The translations under genes and the position numbers were made by a program. From Archaeoglobaceae archaeon (GTDB lineage: Archaea; Halobacteriota; Archaeoglobi; Archaeoglobales; Archaeoglobaceae), in contig JANXEF010000005.1 in NCBI GenBank assembly GCA_025057895.1, positions 1 through 64,000 of the forward strand: a stretch of DNA of 64,000 nucleotides, in the 5' to 3' direction. Under the pieces are notes generated by a model. The model was not told the origin of the DNA. It ran no database searches and worked only from the letters and a program-made list of their open reading frames with translations. Positions 14,104 to 20,147 of this stretch are shown here, piece after piece. Positions within the stretch are counted from its first letter, which is position 1, and each line of letters starts with the position of its first letter.

Positions 14104-14490
14104 TCACTGTTTTTCCTTTAGCAAGATGGCATTTATTATGCCTTCCTGGCTTGGTCTGTTTGTAACCTTAGCCTTTCCAATAGAGGTTGTTATTATCGCC
14201 CCTTTTGTTATCACACCATGGCGCACATAGTGAACATTGGCTGGATTTTCTGCAACCCCTTTTATCTCAGCTCTTACTACTTTTTTTTGCTCTGGATCGT
14301 ATACATTTGCATATTTGTCAGCAAAAAGTCTTATTTTATAAATTCCCCCTCTTATTCTATCTTTTTTAACTTTTCTATCACCAACCGTAGTCATCACTTG
14401 TTCTCCACCCAGTTCATACTTCCTCTTTTTCCTGTGTGGCCTATAAAGACCGCCAGTAGATTTTCTTCTACTTCTTCCCTGAAATATCAT
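14104..14490 (-). CDS. rps8e: Small-subunit ribosomal protein S8e
   Basis: A 128-aa archaeal S8e of the 30S subunit. The N-terminus FQGRSRRKSTGGLYRPHRKKR (quoted in part: GRSRRKSTGG, RPHRKKR) is the family signature, followed by KYELGG and late motifs VHYVRHGVITKGA and TSRIGKA-like TSIGKAKVTNRPSQEG. It is transcribed away from RNase P RNA; a GGTGAAC site precedes the ATG. Both promoters may share one TATA element near 14520-14529. Confidence 0.94.
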   Translation of the reverse strand: MIFQGRSRRKSTGGLYRPHRKKRKYELGGEQVMTTVGDRKVKKDRIRGGIYKIRLFADKYANVYDPEQKKVVRAEIKGVAENPANVHYVRHGVITKGAIITTSIGKAKVTNRPSQEGIINAILLKEKQ

Positions 14491-14555: not shown

Positions 14556-14806
14556 GGGAGTGGTGGTGGACGGCTGACCGAGAGGAGGAAAGTCCCCCCA
14601 CCCATAAAAAGGCGGGTCTCGTAAGAGATATCTCCGAGAGGAGATCTAGTGGGAACAGAAAAAATCCCGGTAGAGGGAAATGCGATGAAGCCGAAAGGCT
14701 TAGATCACCTCTACTGGTTGAAAAATCCTACTAGCCGCCGGGTGCAACGCTTTGCGGCTTAGACTGATGCCGTCTGAACAAAAGGGGGCTTATTACCACC
14801 ACTCCC
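14556..14806 (+). ncRNA. rnpB: RNase P RNA
   Basis: Catalytic RNA of RNase P, which trims tRNA 5' leaders. The ends pair as a 12-bp P1 helix (GGGAGTGGTGGT with ACCACCACTCCC). The conserved core is recognisable: GAGGAAAGTCC near 14585 (CR-I), ACAGAAA near 14655 (CR-II), GATGAAGCC..GGCTTAGAT, and a 3' segment with AACAAAAGGGGGCTTA (CR-V region) just before the closing P1 strand. About 251 nt long, somewhat compact for an archaeal type-A RNA. It is GC-rich relative to the genome, as structural RNAs of thermophiles are. Confidence 0.95.
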
Positions 14807-14903
14807 TACATCAGGAAAATCATTTGACAGAGTAACAGCTTTAAATCATCGATATTTTGATTTTGTACTAATCATAATTTAAAAATTTTGAAAAGATTTG
14901 AAA

Positions 14904-14963
14904 AATTGTAGCCCATCCGGTGGAATCTCCATCATATTTTCAGGAGACGCATGGCGGATGGGC
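14904..14963 (-). ncRNA. Box H/ACA pseudouridylation guide RNA
   Basis: On the minus strand a single hairpin has every archaeal H/ACA feature. A 9-bp lower stem (14955-14963 with 14911-14919) leads to an internal pocket, CCATGCG on the 5' side and TTCCAC on the 3' side. A 5-bp upper stem (14943-14947 with 14926-14930) is capped by a K-loop made of CTGA and ATGATG, the L7Ae-binding D/C motif. ACA lies at 14909-14907, exactly 16 nt after the upper stem. The predicted target is GUGGAA-UN-CGCAUGG, with U modified. A TATA-like TTTAAT (14985-14990) is at the right distance upstream. It would act with Cbf5, Gar1, Nop10 and L7Ae. Confidence 0.8.
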
Positions 14964-15068
14964 AAAAACTCTTCGATTTTAGAAATTAAAAATTTTTGGG
15001 TACTAGAAAAAATTGGATTTCAACTAATTAGAAATTATTTTAAAACTAAAATCTCCAACCACTCGTCG

Positions 15069-15764
15069 ATGAAGATAGGATGCTGTGGATTTCCCATAGC
15101 AATGGAGAAGTACTTTGAGATCTTTGAAGTTGTAGAGGTTCAAAAAACTTTTTATAAGCCCCCAAACCCAAAAACTGCCAATAAATGGAGAGAGAGGGCT
15201 CCAGAGAATTTTGAATTCACTGTAAAAGCCTGGCAAGTGATAACCCATCCGCTTTCAAGTCCGACTTATAGAAAAACAGAGTTGAGTTTAAGGGATGCAG
15301 GATTCTTTAAACCTATAAAAGAGGTATTTGAAGCTTGGAACATAACAAAAGAGATTTCAAAGGTTTTAAAAGCTAAATTTATCCTCTTTCAGACTCCCAG
15401 AAGTTTCAAAGAAAGAGAAGAGAACATAAAAAATATGAAAGAGTTCTTCAACACGATTGAAAAAAATTTCATATTTGGTTGGGAACCGAGAGGCTGGAGA
15501 AATGAGACTGTCAAGAGAGTTTGTCAAGAACTTTCTTTAATACACGTCGTTGATCCATTCGAAAACTCCCCAACTTGGGGTGAGTTGAAATACTTTAGAG
15601 TCCATAAAAACCACAGTGAGGAAGAGATATATTCATTAATTAATAAAGCAGACTATATCATGTTCAACAACCCTTTTATGTTGAGAGATGCTGAAAAATT
15701 AAAGAAGAGGAGGGACGAAGTTGAGGGAAAGAATTATAGAAATTCTAAAAAATTATCATTCTAA
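15069..15764 (+). CDS. DUF72 family protein
   Basis: A 231-aa TIM-barrel-like DUF72 protein of unknown biochemical role. The start GCCGFPI (residues 4-10), then EVVEVQKTFYKPP, the motif PENFEFTVKAWQVITHP (about 45-61), FQTPRSF and FGWEPRGW are family signatures. The frame opens 57 codons upstream, but that part crosses the H/ACA RNA and has no DUF72 similarity, so ATG 15069 is used. ATTTTAAAA (15037-15045) is a fitting TATA box. Its end overlaps purP by 44 nt. Confidence 0.85.
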   Translation: MKIGCCGFPIAMEKYFEIFEVVEVQKTFYKPPNPKTANKWRERAPENFEFTVKAWQVITHPLSSPTYRKTELSLRDAGFFKPIKEVFEAWNITKEISKVLKAKFILFQTPRSFKEREENIKNMKEFFNTIEKNFIFGWEPRGWRNETVKRVCQELSLIHVVDPFENSPTWGELKYFRVHKNHSEEEIYSLINKADYIMFNNPFMLRDAEKLKKRRDEVEGKNYRNSKKLSF

Positions 15765-18368: not shown

Positions 18369-19148
18369 TTATCTAAAATATCTCAAATCCTCATCACTTC
18401 TCCATTGCTGTACTGCTAGTTCCTGCATTTCCTTTATTTGAGCTATTATCTTCTCCATTTCTTTTGCTCTTTCTTCAAGAGCTTCAAACGAGATCTTTAG
18501 GTTTAAAATCTTCGATAAAACAATGAGAACTGCTTTAGCACTCTTTGGATCTACCATATAGCCAGAAGTGACCCCCATCAGACATACAGCTTCAATGTTT
18601 TCAAGCTTTGAAAGCCCGAGCAAAAGTCCTGCAGCACCAATTATCCCTCCTCCCGGCTCTCCTGGCTCAAATCTTACTCCATAACGTTTCATTTCTTCAA
18701 CAAGATCCTTTAAATTTGAAGCCCCTACGACATATGGCTCCTCAACGAGTCTTCCAACTCCATAGCCCCCAAGAGTATAGATTCTCTTAACTCCAAAGCT
18801 TTTTGCAATCTCTATGTATGCATTGACCAACTCAAAATGTCCCTCATTGCTAATACTCTGAAAATCACCAACAAGGATCAGCAGATCTGGTGAAACTGAG
18901 TTAGATTTCCATGCATAAACTTCGTTTCTTGGCATCCTTATAGTTCCATCCTCGAGTACCATCACCTGTGGTGGGAAGTGATGGGAATATATCTCTACAA
19001 CTTTTTCTGCGTTTAGTTCTCTAACAAGATGATCTGCAACCAATTTTCCAACATGTCCTATTCCAGGAAGACCTTCTATAAAAATTGGATCTTTTAACTT
19101 ATATTCCCTGGGATCTTTTAGATAACGCACATCTACCCTTTTTATCAT
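18369..19148 (-). CDS. PAC2 family protein (proteasome assembly chaperone-like)
   Basis: A 259-aa protein of the PAC2 family, homologous to eukaryotic proteasome-assembly chaperone 2. Family motifs seen are FIEGLPGIGHVGKLVADHL (about residues 24-42), YSHHFPPQV, LILVGDFQS, TLGGYGVG (about 144) and GGIIGAAGLLLGL. The last 40 residues form a predicted coiled coil. A role in proteasome assembly is inferred from family membership only. It starts one base after the nop10 stop; the aIF2alpha-nop10-PAC2 order is conserved in euryarchaea from general knowledge. Confidence 0.85.
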   Translation of the reverse strand: MIKRVDVRYLKDPREYKLKDPIFIEGLPGIGHVGKLVADHLVRELNAEKVVEIYSHHFPPQVMVLEDGTIRMPRNEVYAWKSNSVSPDLLILVGDFQSISNEGHFELVNAYIEIAKSFGVKRIYTLGGYGVGRLVEEPYVVGASNLKDLVEEMKRYGVRFEPGEPGGGIIGAAGLLLGLSKLENIEAVCLMGVTSGYMVDPKSAKAVLIVLSKILNLKISFEALEERAKEMEKIIAQIKEMQELAVQQWRSDEDLRYFR

Positions 19149-19149
19149 C

Positions 19150-19329
19150 TCACCACCTTCTCAAAAAGAAACTTTTCTCCTTTCGGAGCATTCTTCTGTA
19201 TTTTCCATAGGGGTCCTCAGGAGAAAATTTTGGAGGAATCGATGTTAATGTTTTTTCTTTACATCTTTGACAGATCTCTCCCAACGTGTATTCCTGACAT
19301 TTTGGACATTTCCTGATCAAAGATTTCAT
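19150..19329 (-). CDS. nop10: H/ACA RNP protein Nop10
   Basis: A 59-aa protein, short enough to be missed by length-filtered gene calling. It begins MKSLIRKCPKC and has a zinc ribbon CPKC..CQRC (residues 8-23). The Nop10 signature PPKFSPEDPYGKYRR follows (about 32-46), then a basic C-terminal helix. Nop10 binds Cbf5 and helps shape the pseudouridylation active site. Its ATG overlaps the aIF2alpha stop (ATGA) and its stop is one base before PAC2, so it is inside a tightly packed operon. The presence of gar1 and an H/ACA guide RNA in the same window supports the assignment. Confidence 0.93.
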   Translation of the reverse strand: MKSLIRKCPKCQEYTLGEICQRCKEKTLTSIPPKFSPEDPYGKYRRMLRKEKSFFLRRW

Positions 19330-20147
19330 ATTGCCTCCCTTACAAAGTTACTCTCTCCACCGAGTTTTTTAACAAGTTTTGATACATTGGTTACGATCTT
19401 TTTCAAAGCGTTTTCTGCAACTTTGTAGTCTTCAGCCTCAACCACAACCCTGTATTTTGGTGCACCAATGTAATAAACTTCCAAAGAGACTGCTTCATCA
19501 GTCTTTAAGTCTTGAAATACCCTCTTTATTCTTTCTACACCATCAGAGTGCAGAAATTTTATTTCAAAATATCCTCTAACTTTGACCTTCTTTGGTTTTA
19601 TATTCTCTCTTGCAATCTCTGCCATGGTTTTGGCAAATTCTTCTCCCACTAATTTTGCTAAAACTTCATATCCTTCACTAGCAACCTCATCGAATGCGGA
19701 GTAAACAGAATCATATTCTTTTAGCAATTTTTTGCCTAATTTTAGAACTTCTTCTTTGCTCAAATTGAGTTTGTTTCCAACGATTTCGAGCCATTTAAAA
19801 GCACTCATTTCATTTTTCCATTGGCGGATTTTTTCTCTCTTTTGCCTCTCATTAACATCCTTTATCGATAAATCGATATGTCCTCTCTTTGGATTTACAC
19901 TTAAAACCTTACAAACAACCTTTTGTCCTTTTTTAACGTGTTCTCTTATGTCTTTGATCCAGCCTGATGCAACTTCACTTATGTGAACCATGCCCTCTTT
20001 GTTTTCATATTCATCGAGAGAGGCAAATGCTCCAAAATCCAAAACCCTTGTTACTGTTCCGATCACTATTTCACCTACAGACGGATATCCACTTCTTCTT
20101 ATGACCAATCTCTCCTGTAGTTCGCTCTCTCGTTTTTCATCTTTCAT
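19326..20147 (-). CDS. eif2a: Translation initiation factor aIF2, alpha subunit
   Basis: A subunit of the heterotrimeric factor that brings initiator tRNA to the ribosome. The 273-aa protein has an N-terminal S1/OB fold (GYPSVGEIVIGTVTRVLDFGAF, quoted in part: GEIVIGTVTRVLDFGAF; KEGMVHISEVA; RGHIDLSIKDV), a helical middle domain, and a C-terminal alpha/beta domain (VRGYFEIKFLHSDGVERIK). ATG 20147 gives a slightly long N-terminus (MKDEKRESELQERL) before the conserved RRSGYP. A TATA-like ACTTAAATTC lies about 30 nt upstream. L44e and S27e, which often precede this gene in archaea, are not here. Confidence 0.93.
   Translation of the reverse strand: MKDEKRESELQERLVIRRSGYPSVGEIVIGTVTRVLDFGAFASLDEYENKEGMVHISEVASGWIKDIREHVKKGQKVVCKVLSVNPKRGHIDLSIKDVNERQKREKIRQWKNEMSAFKWLEIVGNKLNLSKEEVLKLGKKLLKEYDSVYSAFDEVASEGYEVLAKLVGEEFAKTMAEIARENIKPKKVKVRGYFEIKFLHSDGVERIKRVFQDLKTDEAVSLEVYYIGAPKYRVVVEAEDYKVAENALKKIVTNVSKLVKKLGGESNFVREAI

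Follow-up and report, generated by a model that had tools for sequence, protein, structure and literature searches.

A hairpin with H/ACA architecture upstream of DUF72

Does the short stretch just upstream of a DUF72 gene in an uncultured member of the Archaeoglobaceae encode a guide RNA, and, if so, which residue would it direct to modification? The window analyzed here comprises 64,000 nucleotides of contig JANXEF010000005.1, and the original prediction had placed a box H/ACA guide RNA with a K-loop on its minus strand. This prediction is strongly supported by fold, conservation, covariation and a promoter-like element, and we regard it as confirmed that the element is a real one-hairpin box H/ACA small RNA gene with a K-loop. 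The features of the region are as follows (window coordinates; pairing and invariance refer to the copies in related genomes described below).

14558..14804, plus strand: archaeal RNase P RNA (RF00373, 141.7 bits)
14907..14963, minus strand: box H/ACA hairpin, lower stem through ACA (fold and covariance-model match)
14955..14963, minus strand: 5′ strand of the lower stem, GCCCAUCCG (91.9% paired in 51 distinct rows; compensatory changes in 5 pairs)
14950..14955, minus strand: 5′ guide GCCAUG (invariant, 52/52; complementary to 16S CAUGGC after U1004-G)
14948..14949, minus strand: CG, facing UU 14924-14925; forms two GA-stem layers at the pocket mouth and is not guide
14943..14947, minus strand: 5′ strand of the upper stem, UCUCC (100% of cells paired; compensatory changes in 4/5 pairs)
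14931..14942, minus strand: K-loop UGAAAAUAUGAU (layers U-U, G-A and A-G, followed by the loop; putative binding site of L7Ae)
14926..14930, minus strand: 3′ strand of the upper stem, GGAGA (covariation of stem pairs)
14924..14925, minus strand: UU, pocket-mouth layers, not guide (variable: UU, AA, UC, CC and others)
14919..14923, minus strand: 3′ guide CCAC(C), pairing with 16S (G)GUGG (CCAC invariant, 52/52)
14911..14919, minus strand: 3′ strand of the lower stem, CGGAUGGGC (pairing and covariation over 51 rows)
14907..14909, minus strand: ACA box, 14 nt from the tenth stem layer (ACA in 52/52)
14984..15000, minus strand: BRE/TATA-like promoter, CCCAAAAA TTTTTAATT, 21-37 nt upstream of the hairpin
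15069..15764, plus strand: DUF72 gene from its likely true start (MKIGCCGF at 15069)

Read along the minus strand from 14963 to 14907, the hairpin RNA gene has the form GCCCAUCCG CCAUGCG UCUCC UGAAAAUAUGAU GGAGA UUCCAC CGGAUGGGC U ACA. It consists of a 9-bp lower stem, a 7+6-nt internal loop and a 5-bp upper stem closed by a CUGA/AUGAUG K-loop, and the ACA box lies one base past the lower stem and 16 nt from the 5-bp upper stem, all of which agrees with the parts originally described. Its folding energy of -26.7 kcal/mol compares with a mean of -14.7 kcal/mol for dinucleotide shuffles (z = -4.35), and none of 200 shuffles folded as well. The final G of the 5′ strand (GCCCAUCCG) is able to open for target pairing, and the fifth C of CCAC(C) either forms part of the lower stem or reaches the next G of the target to pair with it.

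Genomic context and promoter-like element

The open frame of DUF72 begins at 14898 and runs across the RNA, whereas the Pfam DUF72 match starts only from residue 69 of that frame. The stretch from 14898 is likely to be a spurious extension, judging from the reading frame and its probable start at 15069; the overlap of the element with an upstream extension of this frame, as pointed out originally, is therefore real. On the other strand, the TATA-like box TTTTTAATT (14992-14984) precedes the hairpin by 21-29 nt and corresponds to the element that had been reported about 26 nt before the 5′ end. The same position is A/T-rich upstream of the 52 copies, in which A-rich residues occur at -34/-33 and T/A-rich residues at about -29 to -24 (85-96% A+T there). 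Such boxes fit an independent archaeal promoter, and the 5′ end of the RNA would then lie at or just before the hairpin.

Together with the RNase P RNA, a gene for ribosomal protein S8e (14104-14490, minus strand) is found in the neighborhood of the guide RNA. In six related loci, by contrast, the sequence up to about 1.5 kb from the guide revealed no RNase P RNA. The genes for Cbf5, Nop10 and L7Ae were all found in the genome from which the window comes. The one for Nop10, an H/ACA protein (19150-19329, minus strand; PF04135, 76.7 bits), is part of the window and about 4 kb away from the guide; on visual inspection it is flanked by an aIF2 alpha-like gene (19326-20147) and a PAC2-family-like gene (18369-19148).

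Distribution and covariation in Archaeoglobi

A nucleotide search of 40 relatives revealed clear copies in six other genomes, and when 84,980 species genomes were scanned with a pattern, 20 stretches matched, 19 of them labeled Archaeoglobi and one Kuenenia. The Kuenenia stretch (L066) has neither the stems nor the ACA box and was judged a chance match. Named carriers include Geoglobus, Ferroglobus, Archaeoglobus and 'Ca. Mnemosynella'. With a covariance model made from 20 copies, exactly one match per genome was found in 51 of 59 Archaeoglobi genomes. In a 295-genome sample of the phylum, a single copy with identical guides occurred beyond this class (L118, G170:C56:32864-32937), which could reflect horizontal transfer, contamination or old retention. 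Viral contigs gave no matches. It should be noted that the absences from the model search are soft, as several genomes are incomplete and the filters were stricter. No model match was obtained in four near-complete Archaeoglobi genomes (G054, G025, G018 and G006). One of these, G054, lacks a match and yet keeps the 16S target site discussed below (L125).

Conservation of the stems in related genomes had been named as a check on the original prediction, and the model search bore it out: the stems are kept in the 51 genomes and covary, and none of 500 shuffles did as well. Over 51 distinct sequences, 95.0% of stem cells are paired. Changes on both sides of a pair occur at 9 of 13 pairs, in 55 cells compared with 16.7 in shuffled alignments (0/500), and the covariation score is 0.279 compared with 0.131; no shuffle (0/500) reached any of the five observed measures. 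The K-loop strands are likewise conserved, with GA on the 5′ side in 51 of 52 copies and UGA on the 3′ side in all 52. In two copies the apical part is longer than the usual K-loop (L007:1447-1528 and L118:501-574). As read from its sequence, the helix inserted in the loop of L007 can turn the K-loop into a K-turn; archaeal H/ACA RNAs are known to carry either a K-turn or a K-loop (PMC7991803).

Pocket register and the 16S rRNA target

Productive archaeal guides have 10 stacked GA-stem layers from the pocket mouth to the G-A pairs of the K-turn or K-loop, with the ACA box at 14-15 nt (PMC4652768). The register assumed originally has 8 layers and ACA at 16 nt, closing the pocket at a U-A pair, two layers too low. 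When two layers (G-U and C-U) are added, the count becomes 10, the ACA box lies at 14 nt and the guides become GCCAUG and CCAC. The 10 layers are then made up of five canonical pairs, U-U, G-A, A-G, G-U and one mismatch, and it is the published 10-layer rule (PMC4652768) that places the CG at 14948-14949 in the stem. At the pocket mouth the window copy has a G-U and a C-U opposition, and its stem is not fully Watson-Crick; relatives replace the G-U layer by G-A or G-C.

In this register, GCCAUG and CCAC pair with GUGG-[U]-G-CAUGGC in helix 34 (h34) of 16S rRNA through 10 of 10 Watson-Crick pairs, with no mismatch or wobble. When the ten guide letters were shuffled and matched against 16S and 23S rRNA, none of 1000 shuffled guides reached 10 pairs. 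Among the four registers tried, a perfect 16S/23S match was obtained in the 10-layer register only, at 16S position 1004. The ten guide letters are invariant in all 52 copies, whereas most of the extra letters counted in the original register vary. Since no 16S or 23S gene was found in the MAG that contains the window, which is incomplete, the target was read in relatives rather than in the same genome; it is identical in all 14 retrieved archaeal 16S genes that cover the site, including three from the window's genus. Counting along the E. coli 16S rRNA (1541 nt) puts the target U at 1051, with about U1052 as the value in standard E. coli numbering, and the site in h34 is next to C1054 of the decoding center.

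Two further matches were considered and dropped. One, obtained with 9 layers at 23S position 30 (10/12 pairs), is non-contiguous; the other, the 16S site CCUGGAA-U-C-CGUA, was briefly the best candidate and was abandoned after the 10-layer register gave 10/10 pairs.

The best-surviving alternative, which we nevertheless consider very improbable, is an H/ACA guide that works in the 8-layer register (CCAUGCG/UUCCAC), with GUGGAA-U-N-CGCAUGG, the target proposed originally, or, by shorter pairing, 16S CCUGGAA-[U]-C-CGUAGUAA as its substrate. This register is close to the energetically simplest fold, and the 16S CCUGGAA-[U]-C site offers it 5+4 contiguous pairs, one G-U included. However, when the 16S and 23S rRNAs of relatives were compared with the proposed target, 9 of 13 positions matched at best, and a wobble-tolerant pattern of it gave no recurrent stable-RNA match in seven genomes, so that this part of the original prediction did not hold. 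A geometry of 8 GA-stem layers with ACA at 16 nt has moreover been reported as non-productive (PMC4652768). The letters that this register needs also vary among relatives: across the 52 copies, position C18 of A4 is C in 45 and A in 7, U66 is altered in 9 and U67 in 13, with G19 invariant. On the other hand, the first G of GCCAUG is invariant although it is unused in the 8-layer register, and the 10-layer target needs it.

It is less probable still that the main target is an RNA other than rRNA (for example, a tRNA or mRNA) and the 16S match coincidental; archaeal H/ACA RNAs have been suggested to have targets outside the ribosome (PMC4652768), but a conserved, perfect 10-pair match at the published Af190 position, which 0 of 1000 shuffles equaled, argues against coincidence. 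A hairpin that arose by chance or acts in cis (such as a terminator or the 5′ leader of DUF72) would suit an intergenic element that overlaps an open frame, but it has practically no probability left and is already refuted by the comparative data: neighboring genes differ between the four loci compared, so the element is not the leader or terminator of one operon, and yet the copies retain the guide letters, the ACA box and the K-loop, accompanied by the upstream TATA element.

We have high confidence in the 10-layer reading: a class-wide H/ACA gene with a promoter-like element that, judging from sequence comparison, would guide pseudouridylation of a U in 16S h34 and would be the ortholog of Afu-190. 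Because the mechanism of H/ACA RNAs is known, the steps may be proposed by analogy. L7Ae would bind the K-loop, and Cbf5, Nop10 and Gar1 the stems and ACA box; the pocket strands would pair with GUGG-[U]-G-CAUGGC in h34, leaving U-G unpaired, and Cbf5 would isomerize the exposed U (U1004 in A. fulgidus) to pseudouridine.

The pocket-mouth layers vary across the family (G-U, G-A, G-C or a plain mismatch), while the guides, the spacing of 10 layers and the 14-nt distance of ACA are fixed. We tentatively suggest, although we would stop somewhat short of even confidence, that the register in the Archaeoglobi family is set by the distance in stacked layers and not by pairing. If this is true, the 10-layer rule would gain support from the comparison of natural sequences.

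Relationship to Af190 and other archaeal guides

Rfam searches at gathering and permissive thresholds revealed no H/ACA family above threshold on the element, and the sub-threshold matches were chance-like; only RNase P RNA and tRNA exceeded gathering scores. A single-contig genome of 2,178,400 bp, the size of A. fulgidus DSM 4304, contains one model match (L101, G040:C1:220966-221023), whose guides are the same as those of the window element, and the target U is position 1004 of the 1492-nt 16S rRNA of this genome. In the part of PMC4652768 that cites Tang et al. 2002, Af190 is given as the A. fulgidus guide for 16S S1004. Af190 has been reported as a stable small RNA directing pseudouridylation (PMC4652768). 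Given that the target number agrees exactly and that the genome has a single match, the window element is very probably the ortholog of Afu-190. Its original description as unannotated is correct as far as Rfam is concerned, where no family matches, but not for the literature, which already has the A. fulgidus counterpart Af190 (PMC4652768). The RNA is almost certainly a guide; it is genuine but not new in kind, its counterpart having been described in Archaeoglobus fulgidus.

Our data extend the range of a guide RNA from the single species in which it was described to almost an entire archaeal class and supply a covariance model where Rfam families give no match. They predict a pseudouridine in 16S h34, beside the decoding center, throughout Archaeoglobi, and illustrate how a naive pocket assignment that is two layers off hides the true target.

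Compared with known systems, Af190/Afu-190 and the window element share the kind of RNA and the target U (S1004), whereas the window copy, from an uncultured relative, differs in its stem sequences from the A. fulgidus counterpart. The Pyrococcus H/ACA sRNAs represented by RF00058, RF00060, RF00064 and RF00065 (PMC4652768) likewise have a lower stem, pocket, GA stem, K-turn or K-loop and ACA box; none of these four families reached threshold on the window element. Pa19 of P. abyssi targets 16S S1017. The idea that Pa19 guides modification of the same U was not kept, as a rough numbering based on ac4C1028 (PMC7005279) would place S1017 a few nucleotides upstream. Finally, Hvo1 and Hvo2 of Haloferax volcanii show the archaeal H/ACA architecture and, after refolding, follow the 10-layer rule (PMC4652768), but their targets are in 23S rRNA, unlike the 16S target of the window element.
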